Shown: piece by piece, positions 1 to 10,641 of the stretch
Layout of the letters: each line of letters starts with the position of its first letter
Position numbering within the stretch: the first letter of the stretch is position 1
From: Muribaculaceae bacterium
GTDB taxonomy: Bacteria; Bacteroidota; Bacteroidia; Bacteroidales; Muribaculaceae
Assembly: GCA_023663365.1 (NCBI GenBank)
Contig: JAMPHP010000003.1
Location: 16,569-80,568 of the forward strand
Reading direction: 5' to 3'
DNA: 64,000 bases
Made by a program: the position numbers and the translations under genes
The notes under the pieces: generated by a model
Told to the model about the DNA's origin: nothing
Seen by the model: the letters and a program-made list of their open reading frames with translations, nothing else
Databases searched by the model: none

Positions 1-711
1 TATGCTCTTTTCCACGGCATCTGCATCGATGTCGCCGACCACTATCACTGCTTGATTGGCAGGAATATACCACTTGGAATAAAAGTCGCGAAGTGTGGCC
101 GGATCGAAATTCTCAACCACGCTCATAAGCCCGATAGGAAGGCGGTTCCCGTAGGCCGAGCCTCCGTAAAGGCGAGGAAAAGCCCGCTCGAGCATACGGT
201 TGGAGGCCGAGTTGCGTTGCCGCCATTCGTTCACTATCACTCCGCGCTCGGCATCGATGTCGGCGTCGGCGAGCGTGAGGGCACAACTCCAGTCGCGCAG
301 TATGAGCAGGCATGAGTCGACAGTTGATGCACGCCTTGTGGGTGCTTTGCATATATTGTAGACCGTCTCGTCGGTCGACGTGTAGGCATTGAGGTGCGCG
401 CCGAACTTCACGCCTATGCTCTCGAGATAGGCGATGAGGCTGTTGCCGGGAAAGTGTTCGGTGCCGTTGAAGCACATGTGCTCGAGGAAGTGTGCGAGGC
501 CACGCTGGTTCTCATCCTCGTGGACCGAGCCCACGCGCTGCGCGAAGAAATAGTCGGCCGTGCCTTCTGCGCTGTCGTTGTTCAGGATGTAGTAGGTGAG
601 CCCGCCGGGGAGGGTGCCGGTGCGCATGTCCGGCGGGATATTCGCCGCGGTTGCCGAGGCCGCTCCAAGCACGGAAGCGACCGCAAGGATAGCTAATTTT
701 CTGAATTTCAT
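1..711 (-). CDS. M16 family zinc metallopeptidase, N-terminal part (cut by window edge)
   Basis: The ATG is at 711-709 and the frame stays open for 237 codons to base 1, so the protein runs off the window. Residues 1-23 form a signal peptide, placing it in the periplasm or outer envelope. The inverted zinc motif HFLEH (His74, Glu77, His78) lies in the typical GLAHFLEHM context, and a downstream NEWRQR holds the usual third ligand Glu. This is the catalytic half of an M16 (insulinase/PqqL-like) peptidase, whose members cut peptides or partly unfolded small proteins inside a closed chamber. Only 18 bases separate it from the gene upstream, so it is probably the last or a late gene of the TonB receptor operon reaching back to 7934. 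A full protein should have a second, inactive M16 half beyond the window. Confidence 0.92.
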   Translation of the reverse strand, partial: MKFRKLAILAVASVLGAASATAANIPPDMRTGTLPGGLTYYILNNDSAEGTADYFFAQRVGSVHEDENQRGLAHFLEHMCFNGTEHFPGNSLIAYLESIGVKFGAHLNAYTSTDETVYNICKAPTRRASTVDSCLLILRDWSCALTLADADIDAERGVIVNEWRQRNSASNRMLERAFPRLYGGSAYGNRLPIGLMSVVENFDPATLRDFYSKWYIPANQAVIVVGDIDADAVEKSI

Positions 712-729
712 ATTGATTTTATGTTGTTT

Positions 730-2151
730 TCAAAATTTGAATACTATGGCAGTTTTGATTCGGTAGCCGCAACTGCCGCCGGAAGCGTTGAGCGCCTGTG
801 CTTCGGCTGCGATGCCGAGCGCACGCTTGCCAAAGATATAGTCGGCTCCCGCACCGCCTCCGGCCGCCAGAAGCCCGACGGCGTCCTTCGATACCCCTGC
901 GTGTGCAGAGATGAGCCAGCGGCGTGACAGTAGGCGCACATATTCGCACTTTACGGCCGCCGTGATGCGTGAGGCCGTGCTGCGGAGTCGTGGCGACACT
1001 CCCGCATAGACTTCCGATGAATGAAAATATCCTGCCGATAAGCAGGCCTCAAAGCGCTGTTTGCCGGGAAGGACGTGTCGGTAGCAGGCTGAGGCACCGA
1101 CGGAAAGTGTGCTGTAGCTGTATGCGGCCAAAGTGAACAGCTCCGGGTAGACATTGCCCGACGCATCGCCGAAGATACTCTCGCCTCCAAGGCGCTTACG
1201 GTAGCAGAAGTCTAAGCCCGTGCTCAGCACTGCGGAGCGCCAACCTATTTCCGCCTCTGCTTTGTGCTCTCTGATATGTTTCAAAGGAAGATTGTTGAGA
1301 TCCTTGAGCGATTTGGTGAGAGTGAAGAAGGTATATTGCGCAGTAGCGAAGTATCCGTCCTTTCCGGTCGGGAAGAGCGAGAGGCTATAGCTCTGGCGGT
1401 TGCCGGTGTAGAGCGATGCTTTTCCCTGCCCGGCAAAGCGGGCGTAGTGACTGCCCATGCCGGTGAGGTGGTACACGGGTACTTCACCTGTTTCGCTCAC
1501 GAATATCACATCGGAGCTCTGCCTGTACTTGGCCACGTCTGCTCCCAGAGCCAGAATATAGCCGCCGAGCCTGCGCCCGAGGCCCGCTTTGAGGGAGAGG
1601 TCGCCGACGGTGTTCTTGGGGCGGGGATCCGCCTTGCGGTATTCCTGAAGCGCGCGGTAGGCCAAGCCTGCACCGTAGAGCCATGTGCCGCTCTTGAAGT
1701 CGGAAGAATAAGTGCCCTCAAAGATATAGCTTTCGCTGCTGTAGTTGCCCCCGAGCTCATCGGCGGTGAAGTAGGGAAAGACAACTGCGGGGTCCGACAC
1801 ATCGCAGTACTGCACACCGAAGCGCTTGCCATTGCTGTATGAAGCCTTTCCGGTGATGGTTGAGCGCCCGTACTTCATATATGAGGCGGCCTCGAAAAAT
1901 CCTGCTCCCGCACCTGTGCCGATGCCGAACACGAGCTCGCTGCCTGTGTTCCGGCGGTCGAAGCCTGCCATGGCATGCGACAGCGACACATCGTGCTGCA
2001 TGGGTATCAAGGCCGCATTGGCAAGGGCGAGGCGCGACGGTGCGTTGAAGAGCGTGTCATAGGCCATGATGCGATGCTCTATATCGGCAGCGAGACTATA
2101 TGCCGCCGAGCTTATGCCAAGGCTGAATATCAGAAATCGGAGTGCGTTCAC
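730..2151 (-). CDS. DUF6850-like outer membrane beta-barrel protein
   Basis: This 473-residue protein starts at a GTG whose bases overlap the stop of the gene before it (GTGA, 2148-2151). The start gives a good signal peptide (MNALRFLIFSLG..., cleavage near residue 21), which supports GTG over the next internal Met. The body is rich in alternating Gly, Tyr, Ala and Ser with many predicted amphipathic strands and ends in ...AIVFKF with a terminal Phe, the usual outer membrane barrel signature. I recognise it as like the DUF6850 family by overall pattern and by its place after a DUF4876-type lipoprotein and TonB receptor; the family name is from memory and not checked. It probably works with that receptor. 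Substrate unknown. Confidence 0.75.
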   Translation of the reverse strand: MNALRFLIFSLGISSAAYSLAADIEHRIMAYDTLFNAPSRLALANAALIPMQHDVSLSHAMAGFDRRNTGSELVFGIGTGAGAGFFEAASYMKYGRSTITGKASYSNGKRFGVQYCDVSDPAVVFPYFTADELGGNYSSESYIFEGTYSSDFKSGTWLYGAGLAYRALQEYRKADPRPKNTVGDLSLKAGLGRRLGGYILALGADVAKYRQSSDVIFVSETGEVPVYHLTGMGSHYARFAGQGKASLYTGNRQSYSLSLFPTGKDGYFATAQYTFFTLTKSLKDLNNLPLKHIREHKAEAEIGWRSAVLSTGLDFCYRKRLGGESIFGDASGNVYPELFTLAAYSYSTLSVGASACYRHVLPGKQRFEACLSAGYFHSSEVYAGVSPRLRSTASRITAAVKCEYVRLLSRRWLISAHAGVSKDAVGLLAAGGGAGADYIFGKRALGIAAEAQALNASGGSCGYRIKTAIVFKF

Positions 2152-3371
2152 AGTGCTTTCTCTATTTCAGATGGTGTGGCATCGGCGATGAAGTCGCGCC
2201 CCGAGTCGTTGGTCTTGCACAGTATCACGCGGCCGTCGGGAGTGGTGGCGGCCACGCGGCGCCGCACGGCATGGAAGTAGCGGTTCTTGTCGCCGTCGAT
2301 AGTTCCGCAGGAGGTCCAGCCCATGTCGAGCGACGGGGCCGTCACATTCCATTGATATGACGAGGCCACGGAGCAGGTCACCACATCGCAGATCCATTCG
2401 TTGGGTATTTTATAGCAGGTGCCCGACATCGGGAAGCTGCCGGCAGCTGTCACCTGATTGAACTCGTAGGAGTAGCGGTAATTCTCGAGATAGGTCTGCT
2501 TGTCAACGGGTATGCGTGCGAGAGCGTAGGCCTTGAATCCACGGTTATGCAGCAGCCACACGGTGTTGGTGTAGCAGTACCATTTGTCGAGATTTGGCAC
2601 GGCCGGATTGTCGATGTCGCTGTACTTGGGGTTTGTGCTTTCATCGTACCACTCGAAGTCGGCGTGTGAGAGGTCGAAAGAGTTGGGGTTGAGCTCGCGG
2701 TGGTCGATGGCAATGTCGGCGATGAGTAGCGAGCCTCCGGGCTCAACCGGGTGCTCACGCCCGCTGCCGGGGATGAGGTAGACGGCATCGATGCTCATGG
2801 CTTGTGCCATGATGTCGGGCGTGTAGTCGAACTTCTGTGTGGTGAGAAACTTCGACTCCACGATGGCGAGCCCGTCGGCGTAGATGGTGTGGTCGGTGTT
2901 GTTGTAGAGCTTGAAGTATTGGTCGCCGTTGTATTGATTGCCGGAGGTCTGCAGAGTGCCGGTGTAGAACATTTCGGCGATTATGAGGTCGTCGGTAGGC
3001 ACTATGGCAAAAGCCTCAAGGTTCACCGCAGGGCTCGTTGGGCCTAACTCACGGCAGGCTGCTATGGCCCGGACTTCGGCCACGACTCCGTCGGCAAGAC
3101 TTGCCGTGGCCGTGTACGAAATATCGTAGAGCCCCGGCAGCACACTCACCCCGGCTTCCGGCTCTGAGCCGGTGTTGATGGCTACAGTCACTCCCGTGCT
3201 GATATTGTAGAGCGAAAAGCTGCCTTGGCCGAGTGTCGGCAGATTTACATCAGCAGGAATATTCACGCTGAGCCTCACCTGCACATCGGTGGGTGAGGTG
3301 AAGCCGTCGGTGCAGGCTGTGGCGAGCACGACAGCGGCACCCAGTATTGTTTGTAAAATTTTGTTCATCAT
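2148..3371 (-). CDS. DUF4876-like surface or periplasmic lipoprotein
   Basis: The protein has 407 residues if it starts at the ATG at 3371, which overlaps the TGA of the receptor gene in an ATGA (3368-3371) and is followed at once by a second Met codon. An open frame continues upstream to 3914 but lies entirely inside the receptor gene, so I do not use it. The N-terminus MMNKILQTILG...ATAC is a lipoprotein signal with the lipid Cys near residue 21. An N-terminal Ig/CarboxypepD-like segment (about residues 28-100) precedes a lamin-tail-like region with the pattern IIAEMFYTG, FKLYNNTD and YADGLAIVES, which matches DUF4876 as I know it. Translational coupling to the receptor suggests a partner lipoprotein, in the position SusD would have, though it is not SusD-like. 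Confidence 0.78.
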   Translation of the reverse strand: MMNKILQTILGAAVVLATACTDGFTSPTDVQVRLSVNIPADVNLPTLGQGSFSLYNISTGVTVAINTGSEPEAGVSVLPGLYDISYTATASLADGVVAEVRAIAACRELGPTSPAVNLEAFAIVPTDDLIIAEMFYTGTLQTSGNQYNGDQYFKLYNNTDHTIYADGLAIVESKFLTTQKFDYTPDIMAQAMSIDAVYLIPGSGREHPVEPGGSLLIADIAIDHRELNPNSFDLSHADFEWYDESTNPKYSDIDNPAVPNLDKWYCYTNTVWLLHNRGFKAYALARIPVDKQTYLENYRYSYEFNQVTAAGSFPMSGTCYKIPNEWICDVVTCSVASSYQWNVTAPSLDMGWTSCGTIDGDKNRYFHAVRRRVAATTPDGRVILCKTNDSGRDFIADATPSEIEKAL

Positions 3372-6145
3372 AGTGTGAAGTTCAGTTCCATCCCGAAGTA
3401 GGCATCCGAGGAGCGGCGCACGGTCAGCCCCTTGTTGCTGTATGCCGGCAGATAGTCGAGGATGCGGTTCACGAAAAGAGCCACGCGCAGCCACTTGCCT
3501 ATGGTTTTTGTGGCTTTGAGGTTGACGTAGAGTGCCGGAGGCACGGTGTAGGTGTCGTAGAGCTGTGGGTTGTAGTGGCGGATAAGATAGCGGAGCACCT
3601 CGTCGGTCTCGGCCTGTGAGGCATCGAAATGGTGGAGGAGACCGTCGGCAGCACTGATATATGAGTCGGGGGTGCCGTTCTGTGGCAGGCGGCGTGTCTT
3701 CACAAACCACATGCACTGCACGGTGGTGGAGAAAACGAGGCCAAGTTTCGGCAGCTGCGTGTCGAACATGAAGTTGGTGTTGAACTGATCGCTCACGCGC
3801 CCGTCGTCGCTCTTGTATAGACCCACGAAAAGGTCGCTTACAGCGGTGCCGCCCACAACGTCGGATACGGGGTCGAAGAGCATCTGCGAGTTGCTGTAGC
3901 GGGAGCGAAACCACGCGCCGGTCACGATGAGCGATGTGGCCAGTGGCTTCCAGCGTGCCGTGTTGAGCTGAAACTCAATGCCTCGCTTGTCGATGCGCGA
4001 ACCGTTCTCGGCACGTCGATAGCCGCGGAGCACACGCTCGTCGGTGGAGGGTAGGGTGCTGATGTCGGGCGGTGCCGTGAGTTCGCCGGGCTTGATGCCC
4101 GAAGCATCGTAGCGGGTATAGCCGTAGGCATCGTAGACGTTGGAGTATCGGAAACCTGAGTTGAGGTGCTCTTCAAAGTATGTCATCGACAGTCTGTTGG
4201 CACCGAGGCTCACACCGGCACGCACTTCCCATTTGTGGTTGCGCGCAGGCTTGAGGCTGTAGTTCGTGGCATCGTTGATATATGTGCGTATGTTTACCCG
4301 GCTCAGTTCGGCGGGGCGCTCGGTGCTGTAGTAGCCGAGCTGAAGTATGTCGAGATAGGCCGGTTGAGGATAGAGGTAGTCGGCGGTCGGCATTCGGGTG
4401 CTCACGCCGTAGCCGCCCGCGAGCATCAGCTCAAGCCGTCTGCCCGCCACGGTCAGCGCCGGAAGGGTGAGTGTGGCATTGACGCGCGGGTCGAAGTACA
4501 TCTTTCCGGCCATGGCATAGCGTCGGTCTAGCCCTGCGAGTGCTATGCCGTGCACGCCTGCCTGAATGTCGAAGCGACCTATGGGCGATGGTGTGCTGAA
4601 GGCATCTTCGGCATAGACCGATACGACGTTTACTGCCGGTATACTGGAGTACGCGCGCGGGCGTGATGTCCACGACGCTGACAGCGGACGCATGGGGTCG
4701 TACACTTGGCCGCGCCCGTAGTTCTTGCTCAATGTCCACTCTGAGCCGAGTTTGTAGCCATGGCTTGCGCCCGCCCACGCCGGCAGGTCGCCCTTAAGAC
4801 CGAGTTTGGTAAAAATGCTCAGCGGCTTGCCTTCGCTGAGATAGTCGGCGATATACTCTTCGAGGTTATACACGCCGTCGTGTACTCCGGCCGAATTGCT
4901 CACCGGGGCCACTACCGGGCGCGATGGTGCCACTTGCTTGCGGCGGGTGAGGCGGTCGAGGCTATATGAGGCCGAGAGCTTGAGGTCGATGCGGCGTAGC
5001 AAGGGCGTTGAACGAAGTGATAATGAAAGGTCGCTTGCAATAGCCCCGCGGTGGTTGTCGGCCTTGTATTCGTCGATTTTCACGAGCGATAGATCGGGGT
5101 CACTCTTGGCGCGGTCGACGGTGCCGGTGTAGTCGGCGGCAAAGGCCCACTCTGTGAGCATCGACGAATTTTCATGGGTGAGAGAGGCGCGCAGCGATGC
5201 CGTGATACGGCGAAAATTCTCCAGCGAGTTGCGCGGATCGGTCTTGCTGTCGAGCCACCCGAGGTCGGCGTTGAGAGTGTTGCGGCTGTCGCGGCCGAGT
5301 GTGAGTCCTTTGCCTATGTAGAGCAGTTTGCTGTAGCCGTCGGCTTTGAAGCGTGCGGTCAGTGGTGTGGCTTTGCGGCTGCGGCGTATATTCACCACGC
5401 CCGAGGTGAGGTTGCCGTACTCGGCCGATGGTATACCGCGCACCACTTCCACGCTCTCGATATTGTCGGTGGCGAGTGTGCGCATATCCACACCGCGGTT
5501 CATGCTGTTGCGCCCGGTGGCCTCCTCGATGCCCACACTCTGGTGGTTGGCATCGTTCACTATCGGTGCGCCGTCGACGTTGAAGGCTGTGCCGAGTGCA
5601 CTCATTGCATAGTCGGCATTGTCGCTCACCGTGCCGGTGGCTCCCACTGTGCCGGTCTCGCGCAGTCTGATCGAGTTTACCTTACCCATGTCGGGATTTT
5701 GCGAGATATTGCCCGGCAGGAGCTCAAGCAGATCTGTGAAACTCGATGGCTGAAGGTGTGCCATTGCCGCACGGTCAATTCGCGAGGATGAGGTAAGGCC
5801 GCCCGACTCCTTTGCAGTGATGGTGACTTCGCGCAACTGCTCGCCTGCGGGCTTCATGCTGATTACAATAGAGGTGTCGCGGCGCCCTATGCTGATGATG
5901 CGGGAATATGGCTCGAAGCCGAGGTAGGAGGCTTTGACTGTGTAGGTGCCGGAGGGCAGATTGACGCTGAAGCGACCGTCGATGTCAGTCTGCACTGCTA
6001 TGTGCCAGGGCTCGAAGGCCACTGCACACGACACCAGAGGGCTTCCGTCGGTGCTGTCGGTGGCAAAGCCCTCAACCACGGCCGCTTCGGCCATGGTTGA
6101 GGATACCAAAATACATGCTATGAATAGTATTGCTTCTTTTATCAC
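3368..6145 (-). CDS. TonB-dependent outer membrane receptor
   Basis: The 925-residue protein starts at a GTG one base after the stop of the secreted protein upstream. A signal peptide (about 1-21) is followed by a carboxypeptidase-regulatory-like beta-sandwich (about 22-100, with DGSPLVSCAV and GTYTVKASYLGFE), then a plug domain (about 125-260, with IESVEVVRGIPSAEYGNLTSGVVNI) and a long C-terminal barrel ending in MELNFTL. The length and order are those of a TonB-dependent transporter powered by the inner membrane TonB-ExbBD complex. No SusD gene follows; instead a DUF4876-like lipoprotein, a barrel protein and an M16 peptidase do. In Pectobacterium (FusA-FusC) and Escherichia coli (YncD-PqqL) a TonB receptor is paired with an M16 peptidase to import and cut a protein, so a proteinaceous ligand is a reasonable inference here. 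Confidence 0.93.
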   Translation of the reverse strand: MIKEAILFIACILVSSTMAEAAVVEGFATDSTDGSPLVSCAVAFEPWHIAVQTDIDGRFSVNLPSGTYTVKASYLGFEPYSRIISIGRRDTSIVISMKPAGEQLREVTITAKESGGLTSSSRIDRAAMAHLQPSSFTDLLELLPGNISQNPDMGKVNSIRLRETGTVGATGTVSDNADYAMSALGTAFNVDGAPIVNDANHQSVGIEEATGRNSMNRGVDMRTLATDNIESVEVVRGIPSAEYGNLTSGVVNIRRSRKATPLTARFKADGYSKLLYIGKGLTLGRDSRNTLNADLGWLDSKTDPRNSLENFRRITASLRASLTHENSSMLTEWAFAADYTGTVDRAKSDPDLSLVKIDEYKADNHRGAIASDLSLSLRSTPLLRRIDLKLSASYSLDRLTRRKQVAPSRPVVAPVSNSAGVHDGVYNLEEYIADYLSEGKPLSIFTKLGLKGDLPAWAGASHGYKLGSEWTLSKNYGRGQVYDPMRPLSASWTSRPRAYSSIPAVNVVSVYAEDAFSTPSPIGRFDIQAGVHGIALAGLDRRYAMAGKMYFDPRVNATLTLPALTVAGRRLELMLAGGYGVSTRMPTADYLYPQPAYLDILQLGYYSTERPAELSRVNIRTYINDATNYSLKPARNHKWEVRAGVSLGANRLSMTYFEEHLNSGFRYSNVYDAYGYTRYDASGIKPGELTAPPDISTLPSTDERVLRGYRRAENGSRIDKRGIEFQLNTARWKPLATSLIVTGAWFRSRYSNSQMLFDPVSDVVGGTAVSDLFVGLYKSDDGRVSDQFNTNFMFDTQLPKLGLVFSTTVQCMWFVKTRRLPQNGTPDSYISAADGLLHHFDASQAETDEVLRYLIRHYNPQLYDTYTVPPALYVNLKATKTIGKWLRVALFVNRILDYLPAYSNKGLTVRRSSDAYFGMELNFTL

Positions 6146-6146
6146 C

Positions 6147-7934
6147 TTATCGCACTATTACTTTGCGGCCGGAAACGATGTAGAAGCCTGCGGGCAGAGC
6201 CACCGTGGTGCTTTCACCGGCCGATAAGGCGATGCTTGCCACCACACGGCCCGAAAGGTCGACGATTGTGGCCGCGAAATCCTTGTCGCAGCTCATGGTG
6301 AGGCTGCCGATACCGGTACGTACGGTGAATGTATTGCTGTCGGGTGTCGTTGTAGCCACATTCTCTATGCCTGAGAGGAAGTTGCCGGGGAGTTGGACTC
6401 CTGCGGCGAATACGGCCCACTTCTCGGGTGTGGCCGATACTGCGCCGCCGATGCCGGTGAAAGCGGCGTTGCCGCGGGCGCTGATGTAAGCGCAGCCTTC
6501 GCTGGGGAGGTAGGAGAAGCCCGACGCCGCCGGTACTCCGCCGCCTACGAGCACGGGCCAGTCCTGCGAGGTGATGGGGGCGAGTGTCGCACTGCTGTAG
6601 CCTCGGATAAAGACGTTTTTCTGCGTCATGTTGTAGCCGTATACATAGATGGCATCGTCATCTGCCGGGCTTTTGACAGCGTGGAAATAGCCGATGAGAT
6701 CCTTCGAGGGGTCGGCGTTGGCGCTGCCGAAATCAGCCTTGCCGGCAGTTGCTCCGAGCCATCGGCCTGTGGTTGCATCGAATTTGAAGAGAAGGCCGTC
6801 GCGCAGAGTGCCTCCGCATGTGATTGTGTTCGCTACATCGCTGGGGTCGGTAAATCGCCCCGAGGCTTGTGCCGCAACCCAGAGGGTGCCGCCGTCGACA
6901 GTGAGGTGCGAATTTTGCCATCCGATTTGCCCCGACTTCTCGCTGAGGAGGCTTACGAGCCAATTGGCATTACCGGTAGTGAGGTCGAGGGCGCCGATGA
7001 AGGGCGTAATCAATTCGCCGGCCTTGATTTCGGCCTCGCCGAAGCTGCCTGTGTTACCATCCTCGGCTGTTGCCGTGCCCTCGAAGTAGAGCACGTTGCC
7101 GGAAACGGTGATGTCGAGCAGCGACGCGCTCTTAAGCGTGCCCGTGGAGCAGGCGCTGTCGAGATAGTAGCCGTCGGCATCGAGTCGGGCTATATAGAAA
7201 GAGGCTCCTGCAGCCGGTGCTATTTCGGCCATGCTGCCGTCGGCTTTGGCAAAACCGAGCTCTGTGGAGAAACTGCCTGCTACATAGATGTTGCCGGTGG
7301 CATCGGTAGCTATAGCGGAGGTGCTGAGGCCGTCGGCTATAAAGGATTCTTCCGACCCTGTTGCGGCATTGATGGTGCGGAGCCATTCGAGAGTGCCCTC
7401 GGATGAAACTTTGCCTACAATGCCCATGTAGTAGCGCTTGTCTACAGCTGTCGAGAAGTCAGTGGACGTGCCTTCTGCATCGACAAGAGTAAGGGCGCGG
7501 TCGATGTATCCGTCGGTATGGCGTACTTTGGCGAAGAAAACCACGCCGCCGTCAGCAGTGCTGGCGAGGCCGCCCTGGTTAGCCATATAGTCGCCCGAGT
7601 TGGAGTAGACGGTCCAGAGAGCATTGCCTTGGCCGTCGGTCTTGGTGAGGCAGAAGTTATTTGCCACACTTGTGCCTGTATACGGCGATCCGGTGAAAAT
7701 CTTCTCGCCGGCATAGAAAAGATCGGGAGCGGCATCGGTGGAGCCCAGGGTGTTGAGCCAGTAGATATTGTCGGCAGAAGTGGCAAGTACGGCGGTGCTG
7801 TTGTCGCCCGAAGAGGTGTTTCCGTCGAAGAGCTTGATCCACTCAACCTGAGGCTCTGTGAGAGCGGCCGATGCTGTGGCACAGAAGAGCAGGCAAGTAC
7901 CTGCGAAGATGTGCTTTGATGTAGAAATGTGCAT
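6147..7934 (-). CDS. Secreted propeller-like protein with type IX-like C-terminal sorting domain
   Basis: First gene of the receptor operon, 595 residues. Residues 1-23 are a signal peptide (MHISTSKHIFAGTCLLFCATASA). The central 450 residues carry repeated stretches of the kind DNIYWLNTLG, GNIYVAGSF, GTLEWLRTI and GTLWVAAQASG, as in beta-propeller or WD40-like secreted proteins of Bacteroidetes (SBBP-like repeats). The last 60 residues (about 535-595) read TIVDLSGRVV...ALPAGFYIVSGRKVIVR, which matches the type IX secretion C-terminal pattern (G-R-V..., G-x-Y, basic end). It is therefore likely exported and may be cell-surface bound. Only one base separates its stop from the receptor start. 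Role unknown; it could bind the ligand for the receptor. Confidence 0.8.
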   Translation of the reverse strand: MHISTSKHIFAGTCLLFCATASAALTEPQVEWIKLFDGNTSSGDNSTAVLATSADNIYWLNTLGSTDAAPDLFYAGEKIFTGSPYTGTSVANNFCLTKTDGQGNALWTVYSNSGDYMANQGGLASTADGGVVFFAKVRHTDGYIDRALTLVDAEGTSTDFSTAVDKRYYMGIVGKVSSEGTLEWLRTINAATGSEESFIADGLSTSAIATDATGNIYVAGSFSTELGFAKADGSMAEIAPAAGASFYIARLDADGYYLDSACSTGTLKSASLLDITVSGNVLYFEGTATAEDGNTGSFGEAEIKAGELITPFIGALDLTTGNANWLVSLLSEKSGQIGWQNSHLTVDGGTLWVAAQASGRFTDPSDVANTITCGGTLRDGLLFKFDATTGRWLGATAGKADFGSANADPSKDLIGYFHAVKSPADDDAIYVYGYNMTQKNVFIRGYSSATLAPITSQDWPVLVGGGVPAASGFSYLPSEGCAYISARGNAAFTGIGGAVSATPEKWAVFAAGVQLPGNFLSGIENVATTTPDSNTFTVRTGIGSLTMSCDKDFAATIVDLSGRVVASIALSAGESTTVALPAGFYIVSGRKVIVR

Positions 7935-7986
7935 GATAGTCGATAGTTTTGTAATTTCGAGTGCAAAATTACGACTACCGACTATC
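7935..7986. repeat. 12-base imperfect inverted repeat flanking the receptor-operon promoter
   Basis: GATAGTCGATAG at 7935-7946 and CTACCGACTATC at 7975-7986 are reverse complements at 11 of 12 positions. The 28 bases between them hold the -7 box of the operon promoter (7964-7971) and its predicted start site. An arm therefore lies on each side of the transcription start, as expected of an operator or of a leader hairpin. I cannot name the regulator. Confidence 0.55.
7964..7971 (-). promoter_or_regulatory. Bacteroides-type -7 box TAATTTTG for the receptor operon
   Basis: Read on the minus strand the bases are TAATTTTG, a full match to TAnnTTTG. The predicted start site is near 7957, about 23 bases before the ATG at 7934. 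The nearest TTTG upstream is at 7999-8002, a spacing of 27, longer than the usual 19-21, so the promoter may be weak or need an activator. Confidence 0.6.
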
Positions 7987-8098
7987 GTGCGAAATACTCA
8001 AAAGTGAGTAATTTCAAGCGCGCGGCCCTGATAAAAAAATTCTCATATATGCTTAAAAATACTTATGCCGTGAGCGCCGTTTATCCAATAATAATGTT

Positions 8099-8106: not shown

Positions 8107-8134
8107 CTAATCATTGGAATATCGCTTAACGCTT

Positions 8135-8968
8135 ATGAAAGCCGAAGAAATACGGAGTCTATTTGACAGTTTTGAATCAATAGCCATCGAGTATGAGGGT
8201 GTTGAATGTTGGAGTGCTCGCGAGCTTGCCCCTGTTATGGGTTACGTCCAGTGGCGGAACTTTCAGTCGATTATAGAAAAAGCCAAAGAATCGGCTGAAA
8301 ACGCCGGGGAGTTGATATCAGACCATTTTGCCGGCGTCAGCAAAATGGTTGCGCTTGGTTCCGGCGCTGAACGTCAGATAGATGATGTAATGCTTACTCG
8401 CTATGCCTGCTATCTTGTAGCGCAAAATGGCGACCCTCGTAAGCCCGAGATTGCTTTTGCTCAAAACTATTTTGCGGTGCAGACTCGCCGTGCCGAACTT
8501 GTGCATCAGCGACTTCTCGACTACGAGCGAGTGCAAGCGCGAGCCAAACTTGCTGAGACGGAGCATGTTCTTTCCGGCGTGTTATATGAACGCGGGGTTG
8601 ATTCCAAAGGTTTTGCAATAATACGTACGAAAGGCGATCAGGCTCTGTTTGGACTTAACACAGCGATGATGAAGCGACGTGTGGGTGCACCCGACAAGCG
8701 TCCGCTTGCCGATTTCCTTTCAACTCTCGCAATTAAAGCCAAGGACTTTGCCGCCGAAATGACATCTGTCAATGTTCAGCAGAAAGACCTCAGGGGTCAA
8801 GTAAGGATAGAGCGTGAGCACATTGATAATAATTTCGCTGTCCGTGAGATGCTTCTCGACCGTGGAATCCGACCTGAAGTACTTCCACCGGCCGAAGACA
8901 TAAAGAAAGTGGAACGTCGCCTTAAAGCCGATGAGAAGAAAATTCTCCCTAAGAATAAAAAGATCTAA
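8135..8968 (+). CDS. dinD: DNA-damage-inducible protein D (DinD)
   Basis: 277 residues from the ATG at 8135; an in-frame TTG 21 bases upstream is possible but lies at the predicted transcription start. The N-terminal half (about 1-110) is a Bro-N-like domain with CWSARELAPVMGYVQWRNFQ and the stretch YACYLVAQNGD that is typical of DinD. The C-terminal half contains IIRTKGDQALFG, MKRRVGAPDKRPLADFL and NVREML-like helices, as in Escherichia coli DinD, which is SOS-induced and inhibits RecA filament activity. Length fits the family. No partner gene is adjacent. Base composition is lower in GC than the neighbours (24 of 60 G+C in line 8161-8220 by hand count), suggesting recent arrival. I saw no SOS box I could identify. 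Confidence 0.9.
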   Translation: MKAEEIRSLFDSFESIAIEYEGVECWSARELAPVMGYVQWRNFQSIIEKAKESAENAGELISDHFAGVSKMVALGSGAERQIDDVMLTRYACYLVAQNGDPRKPEIAFAQNYFAVQTRRAELVHQRLLDYERVQARAKLAETEHVLSGVLYERGVDSKGFAIIRTKGDQALFGLNTAMMKRRVGAPDKRPLADFLSTLAIKAKDFAAEMTSVNVQQKDLRGQVRIEREHIDNNFAVREMLLDRGIRPEVLPPAEDIKKVERRLKADEKKILPKNKKI

Positions 8969-9318: not shown

Positions 9319-10641
9319 TTAGAATGAGAACTGGCACATGGCGCCGGCGCGGCGTGCCCAGCGGTGCTCGCCGGAGAAGTTCTGCCGCTTGCCGAGGTCT
9401 ATTTCGGCAGCTACCTGTATGCGCGGTGTGATGTTCCAGAATACATTCAGGCAGGTGAAAATGCCGTATTTATACTCGTCGGGGCTCACGCCGTAGCGCG
9501 GAAGATAGCGGTTCTGCGATGCCGATGCGCTCACGAAGAGGTCGGGGCGGATATTGTACTGCACGCCCACACACCAGCCGAATGAAGCGGGTGCATAGAG
9601 GCTGCCGGGAGCGTCAGGGCGCCCCACAAGGTCGTAGTTGCCAATCTGCATATCGCCTGCAAGACCGGCATAGCCATGCCCGTAGCTTGCCGTGAGGTAG
9701 GTGGTGAGTTGTGGCAGCGGGTGAGCTACCGAGCTGAGCTGCAGGCCCCAGCCGGCGGTGTTGTGGTTCTTCTCGGCGAGCATGTTGCGGTAGGATAGTG
9801 TGCGCACTATGCCTGCCAGGCGCACGTGCTGACCTTGCGCCCACTGGTACTGCACGAAAGCGGCCCAGTCGGGCATCCAAGTGCTCACTTTCTCTGTGTT
9901 GGTGTTGTCGACGGCAAGTGAGGGCGATGGAGTCTCGGCGGAGACTGCAAATACCCATCGGTCTTTTACCACCGGCATCCATCGCAGCAGCACTGCCGTG
10001 GGGGTGAGCTTGTTGTTGGGTCCTTGCGCATCCACTGTGGGCGGAACGGCGGCGGGGTCGGAGAAAGTCGATGCAGCGTAGCCGATGGTGAAGTCGTTGA
10101 TGATTGCGTATGCCTTCTTCAGGTGAAAATCTCGCGACTGATAGCCGTTGAAGTTGGCCTCGATATAGAGCTGATATTCGCCCAGGGCTTTGTTGCGGCC
10201 TATCACGCGGAAGAAGAGGCATGTGCCGGCGGGGGTAGTGTCGAAGTGGCGCCTGTCGGTGGGAGAGGGGTGCATCGGTATGAGATAGGGCGCGAAGCCG
10301 CTGGCCGGGATTGCGCCGCCCCAGTCGTAGTAGCCGCGCATACGCACGGCGCCGCCTATGCCCATGGCGAGCTTGGCATCCTTGCTCATGAAGAGAAAGT
10401 AAGGCGCGCCGGGATCCTGGAAGTGGCGGAACTGGTCGTAGTAGAATGTCGATATTACACGTCGCACAGAGTCCACATAGTGCTGTGTGACCTCAGGTGC
10501 GGGTTTGCCGTCGATAAATACTACTTTGTTGGAGAGCAGGGTAGTGTCAATCTGCCGGTCGGCCAATGAGCGGTCGGCGGCGTGTGAGCACAGGGCGATT
10601 GCAGCAGCGGCAATGCAAGTAAAAAACTTCGGAACTTTCAT
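9319..10641 (-). CDS. Porin-like outer membrane protein, possibly DcaP family
   Basis: 440 residues with a signal peptide (about 1-21, ending CSHA-AD). The body is rich in strand-forming segments such as GIGGAVRMRGYYDWGG, YQLYIEANFNGY and VGVQYNIRPDLFVSASA and ends in MCQFSF with a terminal Phe, so it should be an outer membrane barrel. The pattern FDTTPAGTCLFFRVIG and SRDFHLKKAYA..TIGYAASTF resembles DcaP-like porins found in Bacteroidetes, in which a barrel admits small anionic compounds. The family call is by resemblance. A terminator lies 19 bases past its stop. Its upstream neighbour on the same strand ends at 10686, 44 bases away. No TonB plug is present. Confidence 0.65.
   Translation of the reverse strand: MKVPKFFTCIAAAAIALCSHAADRSLADRQIDTTLLSNKVVFIDGKPAPEVTQHYVDSVRRVISTFYYDQFRHFQDPGAPYFLFMSKDAKLAMGIGGAVRMRGYYDWGGAIPASGFAPYLIPMHPSPTDRRHFDTTPAGTCLFFRVIGRNKALGEYQLYIEANFNGYQSRDFHLKKAYAIINDFTIGYAASTFSDPAAVPPTVDAQGPNNKLTPTAVLLRWMPVVKDRWVFAVSAETPSPSLAVDNTNTEKVSTWMPDWAAFVQYQWAQGQHVRLAGIVRTLSYRNMLAEKNHNTAGWGLQLSSVAHPLPQLTTYLTASYGHGYAGLAGDMQIGNYDLVGRPDAPGSLYAPASFGWCVGVQYNIRPDLFVSASASQNRYLPRYGVSPDEYKYGIFTCLNVFWNITPRIQVAAEIDLGKRQNFSGEHRWARRAGAMCQFSF

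Follow-up and report, generated by a model that had tools for sequence, protein, structure and literature searches.

The operon and its products

This report concerns a five-gene operon of a Muribaculaceae bacterium that probably encodes an iron-starvation-induced outer-membrane uptake system. It lies at the start of a 64,000-nucleotide stretch of contig JAMPHP010000003.1 (positions 16,569 to 80,568; G000:C28:16569-80568), here called the window; open frames throughout the analysis were called with a greedy script and not a gene finder. The operon occupies the minus strand and runs from position 7934 past the window's first base. Head to tail, it encodes a secreted propeller-like protein with a C-terminal tail resembling type A signals of the type IX secretion system (P, 6147..7934, 595 amino acids), a TonB-dependent receptor (R, 3368..6145, 925 amino acids), a DUF4876 lipoprotein (L, 2148..3371, 407 amino acids), a DUF6850 barrel-like protein (B, 730..2151, 473 amino acids) and an M16 zinc peptidase. 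The N-terminal part of the peptidase is in the window (1..711; PF00675, 1.3e-24) and its whole gene, which encodes 934 amino acids, was found on the minus strand of the contig (L008:14475-17279). The P stop codon (6149-6147) is separated by one base from the GTG of R at 6145, the TGA of R overlaps the ATG of L (ctATGATG; ATGA type), the TGA of L overlaps the GTG of B (GTGA), and the gap between B and the peptidase gene is 18 bp. As the next gene is convergent, the peptidase gene is the last of the operon; a divergent DinD-like gene flanks the other side. The first-pass annotation had described a five-gene operon with translational coupling, and this description stands with its coordinates, its strand and its overlapping or near-touching junctions.

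That annotation also called the first gene propeller-like. The matches behind this name are weak, and both fall below the cut-off (SBBP in Pfam, 0.042; Lepto_SBBP_lipo in NCBIfam, 4.4e-5). The tail motif of P, G-x-Y-I...K, was maintained across a 21-row alignment, and the tail of the P family profile matched the C-terminal chain of Arg-gingipain (7pq4) with an E value of 0.009. P itself scored 17.4 bits against Por_Secre_tail TIGR04183 (cut-off 23), and the type IX sortase model gave two matches above cut-off in the same genome. L starts at 3371 and contains the lipobox LATAC. Its assignment to DUF4876 and that of B to DUF6850 were both confirmed (PF16215, 4.8e-69; PF21012, 1e-67). The L profile matched a putative lipoprotein of known structure (4q1z, 6.5e-35), and the best PDB sequence match of B was weak (E 0.3).

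R contains CarbopepD_reg_2 and Plug domains (Pfam). An AlphaFold2 model of R (pLDDT 81.8) has the TonB-transporter fold, with structural matches that include PirA, ChuA and FoxA, and the best PDB sequence matches of its N-terminal and plug parts were SusC/RagA. The latter matches favour uptake of a peptide or glycan nutrient in the manner of SusCD or RagAB. We nevertheless consider that reading improbable: R scored 49.8 bits against SusC model TIGR04056, far below the cut-off of 368.25, Pfam annotation revealed no SusD partner among the five operon genes, as had been noted from the outset, and the operator described below is of a type common to FeoAB.

A conserved core with interchangeable modules

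An alignment of DUF4876 proteins of the window's type gave 343 matches, the best 80 of which were taken as related loci, with up to 20 kb fetched for each. Because they were chosen in this way, the 80 loci over-represent the window's kin; judged by length, two of them (L045 and L047) are contigs of the same-genus genomes G225 and G218. R and L adjoined each other on one strand in 74 of the 80 loci and L and B were adjacent, in either order, in 76, and we conclude that R-L-B is a conserved core. An M16 gene lay in the same run in 34 loci and was missing from 40 that were not cut off; a further 6 were cut off. The order P-R-L-B-M of the window was seen in two loci, L045 and L047. Segatella copri, a gut commensal in culture, is among the bacteria with the M16 type (L082). 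In an evenly drawn sample of 198 genomes from the order, with at most four M16 candidates scored per genome, DUF4876 was present in 34 and DUF6850 in 39 (32 above the cut-off). Comparison by eye placed the two families near each other on a single contig in 32 of these 34, and M16 stood beside DUF4876 in two of the 34 (the genome of the window and G008) among the matches listed. Within this genome and 36 others of its genus, a DUF4876 match was found in 16, one of them a fragment. Ten of these 16 had M16 with the operon, after DUF4876 in 8 and ahead of R in 2, one of the latter (G210) being placed by coordinates only. The coherent outer-membrane uptake operon initially proposed is thus upheld by a conserved core and a full-length peptidase at its end. 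As to the order of the five genes, R-L-B is widely kept and the position of M16 is not universal. The doubt raised at the outset, that the peptidase gene might usually lie elsewhere, is answered differently by different samples: M16 shares the run in the 34 loci and accompanies most own-genus operons, and it is missing from half of the 80 loci and from nearly all of the even draw among the matches listed.

What accompanies the core varied between loci. M16 was present in 36 of the 80 loci, a set of PepSY, ABC and DUF4857 genes in 19, a di-haem cytochrome c peroxidase in 10 and none of these in 15; the search covered the fetched stretch, and 'none' includes cut contigs. Two of the three modules never occurred at one locus (0/80). 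For M16 and the PepSY set, 0 overlaps were observed versus 8.6 expected under independence, a figure weakened by its disregard of relatedness. Two peroxidase loci were tested and matched CCP_MauG with E values of 2.1e-54 and 6.6e-53, and all 10 belong to Flavobacterium or Chryseobacterium. The three modules require at least six switches on a receptor tree of 76 rows, a quick one that like the M16 tree below contains several weak forks. Mutual exclusion was therefore observed across the 80 loci, and the modules may be equivalent in role: these results suggest that relatives retain the core and swap the peptidase for other machinery, giving different ways of freeing iron from cargo. In FusA clusters of Proteobacteria the receptor is accompanied by FusC or, in multiple cases without FusC, by a cytochrome c peroxidase, which the authors read as the imported protein being cut versus reduced (PMC6793856). 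The swap described here repeats that peptidase-or-peroxidase pattern in another phylum, and the three-way exchange on one core provides three natural experiments on iron release after outer-membrane import.

Operator, putative regulon and probable response to iron

An operator-promoter element was identified ahead of P on the minus strand (7964..8010); neither it nor the type IX-like tail of P was part of the first-pass annotation. It consists of the palindrome TACTCACTTTTGAGTA (7995-8010), a spacer of exactly 23 bp and the -7 box TAATTTTG (7964-7971). A long inverted repeat between the operator and the start codon (7935..7986, minus strand) covers the -7 box; the fold of window positions 7934-8010, which also holds the operator palindrome, had a free energy of -30.6 kcal/mol and a z score of -8.0. 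The palindrome, TACY-N8-RGTA, resembles NarL sites in its 16-bp, 7-2-7 geometry and its TACY/RGTA ends. NarL-type proteins bind 7-2-7 inverted-heptamer sites (PMC4549865, PMC4886647), one of which is printed as TACCCCTAAAGGGGTA in PMC4549865, and the heptamer is given as TACYYMT in PMC4886647.

The exact composite site, TACY-N8-RGTA-N23-TANNTTTG, occurs at three places in the genome of the window: ahead of the operon, ahead of a 192-amino-acid lipoprotein and at a geneless place. The exact palindrome TACTCA-N4-TGAGTA occurs at two, the operon and the region between feoAB and a divergent gene. A looser site (palindrome with at most one mismatch, 23 bp before TANNTTTG) was found in 24 of 121 regions upstream of P or R, representing 22 of the 80 loci, compared with 5 of 825 regions upstream of other genes, one of which (L066) heads a PepSY module, and 0 in 40 shuffles. 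The operator spacing in L045 is 24 bp, not 23, and the divergent neighbour of the operon there is feoAB (TIGR00437, 6.6e-183). In the own and 36 same-genus genomes, the exact composite site was present at 54 places versus 2 for a reversed control. Eleven same-genus loci were fetched, and 8 had a site (at most two mismatches) ahead of the first gene; in the same-genus genome G208, P is on one contig and R-L-B-M on another, and both bear a composite site.

Of 70 sites outside the own genome, one (in G020) was left out and the remaining 69 yielded 67 distinct sites, whose following genes were classed. Classing queries were drawn partly from the same sites, and the following counts include self-matches. 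FeoAB was behind 7 of the 67 (2 within the genus and 5 elsewhere in the order), a hemerythrin-GerE (LuxR) regulator behind 6, porins behind 8, R-type receptors behind 4, P behind 2 and other receptors behind 3, and a small lipoprotein and an ABC gene of the PepSY module behind one each, such that 32 sites fell in named classes. The porin-like proteins form two groups with a VGGYGE motif (L163, L165, L188, L192, L200, L214, L215 and L217); two were tested and gave no Pfam match at E 0.01, 'porin' being our reading. The small lipoproteins include G000:C11:482753-483331 (L151:6754-7332), L240:469-1152 and L120:12186-12770, and a C-x-H-x-C-x-H-G motif was invariant in 8 aligned members. A member follows the operator in the own genome; in L240 the gene is attached to M16-R-L-B-L, and elsewhere to the PepSY/ABC module. 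The family appears to be a metal- or haem-binding component of the same system as the operon.

The same operator (L150:6990-7036) precedes a candidate small RNA in the own genome (G000:C7:7037-7110; L150), with relatives in L164, L168, L173, L174, L178, L181, L186, L190, L193, L204, L207, L212 and L216. A core, ACG[AG]A+TTGTT, was found 12-47 nt after the -7 box in 14 of 68 distinct sites, with a variant in L207, and 12 of 13 candidates tested had a GC-rich hairpin followed by a T-rich tail. A search of 12 loci gave no Rfam match above the gathering score at the position of the candidate. We regard this element as a candidate iron-starvation RNA.

A CdhR-like hemerythrin-GerE protein is, we infer, the most likely regulator to bind the operator. 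CdhR controls hmuYR, and the operon resembles HmuYR/CdhR in its likely membership of an iron/haem regulon and in that CdhR-type hemerythrin-LuxR genes bear the composite site in several genomes (L155, L166, L167, L202, L206 and L208); it is unlike HmuYR in that no HmuY-like gene is among its five genes. Because the regulator genes bear the operator at these six sites, autoregulation is suggested. The protein agrees with what has been described for a fused regulator of the CdhR type in P. intermedia (PMC10434189). The fixed spacing would suit an activator bound just upstream of the promoter, and is compatible also with a repressor covering the -33 box.

Low-iron induction has been published for three loci in which, as in the window, a receptor adjoins DUF4876: PG1019-22 of P. 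gingivalis (20.8-214.5-fold), BT3625-33 of B. thetaiotaomicron (36.7-128-fold) and, more weakly, BT1933-39 of the same species (3.5-7.4-fold) (PMC10434189). They differ from the operon in that the words M16 and insulinase occur 0 times in that paper, and BT3625-33 carries PepSY, ABC and DUF4857 genes. The hemin-responsive genes reported for P. gingivalis include one of DUF4876, which is given next to HmuY with a log fold change of -5.42 (PMC10470040). The operator type common to feoAB, together with this published induction of DUF4876 and receptor genes, strongly suggests that iron limitation is the trigger. Our preferred explanation, to which we give a probability of roughly 0.7, is that the operon serves uptake across the outer membrane, is induced by iron starvation and carries a release module that differs between lineages; the evidence supports it well, though indirectly.

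Several observations weigh against this explanation. The palindrome between feoAB and its divergent neighbour in the own genome lacks a -7 box at the 23-bp spacing, and the palindrome on its own, with one mismatch allowed, showed no enrichment (4 versus 7 in the control). Outside the genus, in 24 genomes of the order, the composite site barely exceeded its control (19 versus 12), and 35 of the 67 sites had no classed gene behind them. The hemerythrin-LuxR gene of the own genome (C11:1350220-1351152) lacks an exact composite site, and G221, which is 71% complete, has two sites and no regulator match; co-occurrence with the regulator is uninformative, since the regulator was matched in 58 of 61 genomes. 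Finally, many R-L-B loci are without M16 (the 40 of 80 in which it was not cut off, and 32 of the 34 in the even draw, among the matches listed).

If iron starvation is the signal, a NarL/LuxR-type activator would bind the 16-bp palindrome beside the promoter when iron is low. P would reach the cell surface by type IX export, as its sorting tail suggests, and L would be anchored on the outer membrane by virtue of its lipobox; both might assist in capturing a ligand that carries iron or haem. R, a transporter by its modelled fold, possibly with B, would then move the presumed cargo across the outer membrane using TonB energy. In the periplasm the lineage-specific module would free the iron, here through cutting of a protein or peptide carrier by M16; in relatives the di-haem peroxidase or the PepSY/ABC/DUF4857 set might do so without cutting. 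The freed ferrous iron would enter through FeoAB. Knowledge of iron-responsive gene regulation in Bacteroidetes is scarce (PMC10434189). A defined operator, TACY-N8-RGTA 23 bp before a -7 box, makes this regulation directly testable and points to a class of regulator.

The peptidase and its possible substrate

The complete M16 gene bore out the signal-peptide-like start and HFLEH motif first noticed on its truncated form, and extension along the contig revealed the second half, with two M16_C matches in all; the objection foreseen at the outset, that this half might be lacking, is thereby removed. H74, E77, H78 and E155 were invariant in an alignment of 14 linked M16 homologues. The protein has the HxxEH motif, the distal Glu and the two halves expected of an active peptidase. 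In a PDB search with its profile, the closest entry was 9ldy, an M16 peptidase of unstated function, followed by PqqL (6.5e-130) and FusC (3.9e-67), these two matched over full length, whereas pitrilysin (1q2l) was matched in part (1.5e-10). A second full-length PqqL-like M16 gene of the own genome is unlinked to the operon (G000:C32:35628-38471; L010:7629-10472), and inspection by eye of the listed frames in its surroundings turned up no TonB receptor. As this paralogue scores alike (234 versus 237 bits), the likeness to PqqL is not specific.

Could the peptidase be a housekeeping enzyme that happens to follow the operon? M16 matches were present in 197 of 198 genomes, and the many R-L-B loci with no adjoining M16 would agree with such a chance neighbourhood. 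We consider it very improbable, because linked and unlinked M16 proteins separate on a tree, 10 of the 16 own-genus DUF4876 genomes carry M16 in or beside the operon (G210 by coordinates only), and M16 and the PepSY module avoid each other, with relatedness ignored as above. The quick M16 tree comprised 33 linked and 20 unlinked sequences, the latter being 19 hand-picked genes and the own paralogue, and omitted linked proteins of 850 amino acids or fewer (L053, L054 and L065). The linked sequences formed two pure, strongly supported clades in addition to the gene of G008, with 3 changes of label versus 16.2 in shuffles. As they split into separate groups, M16 seems to have been recruited to the core more than once.

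No single reading of the M16 form is more attractive than strict piracy as in the Fus system, in which R would bring in an intact iron or haem protein for M16 to break down in the periplasm. It is plausible, and we rate it a little short of an even chance. It draws on the co-operonic position and intact zinc motif of the peptidase, on the full-length PqqL and FusC matches, on the two linked clades and on an M16-or-peroxidase swap the same as that of FusA clusters (PMC6793856). Set against it are the many cores without M16 and the receptor itself, for which sequence comparison detected no kinship to FusA. Alternatively, R could take up a small chelate, haem or a (xeno)siderophore, with M16 cutting a peptidic carrier or turning over uptake proteins. 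The structural matches of R to PirA, ChuA and FoxA, the hemin-responsive DUF4876 gene listed with HmuY (PMC10470040) and the cores with PepSY or peroxidase modules, which work without a peptidase at the locus, are consistent with this. It offers no reason for the attachment of a two-half PqqL/FusC-type peptidase to the core, which is seen in at least two clades, and we hold it to be a serious if tentative alternative.

The pairing first cited as precedent, YncD-PqqL, was wrong; the published pair is YddB-PqqL, according to the abstract. Like Fus (FusA-FusC, Pectobacterium) and YddB-PqqL (E. coli), the operon clusters a TonB receptor with a two-half M16 peptidase of the PqqL/FusC kind, and low-iron expression, published for PqqL, is here predicted from the operator. 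As in Fus, the peptidase or a di-haem peroxidase is used in different clusters. Unlike Fus, the operon adds a DUF4876 lipoprotein, a second barrel (DUF6850) and the type IX-tailed P, relatives of the operon use a third module (PepSY/ABC/DUF4857), and neither a TonB-like gene (FusB) nor an ABC gene, which in the Fus cluster is FusD, is among the five genes. The published FusA survey concerns Proteobacteria, and 'Bacteroid' occurs once in its text, for SusC (PMC6793856). The operon shares with BtuB-BtuG and SusCD the combination of a TonB receptor and a partner lipoprotein in Bacteroidota; it differs from them in that this lipoprotein is DUF4876, not SusD, and in its iron-type operator.

A broader proposal would make this a form of iron piracy peculiar to Bacteroidota. 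The constant core and a surface capture protein would import intact iron or haem proteins, and three mutually exclusive modules would release the iron, M16 by proteolysis, the di-haem peroxidase by redox chemistry and the PepSY/ABC/DUF4857 set by reduction or export. A hemerythrin-NarL-type iron sensor would govern a regulon that includes FeoAB and the undescribed small RNA, as a counterpart of Fur plus RyhB. Taken as a whole, this proposal is rather unlikely.

Two further genes lie near the operon. A 440-amino-acid, secreted-looking protein without an NCBIfam match at E 0.1 is encoded at 9319-10641 on the minus strand, and the divergent neighbour (8114-8968, plus strand) is a homologue of DNA damage-inducible protein D (NF008573, 344.8 bits).

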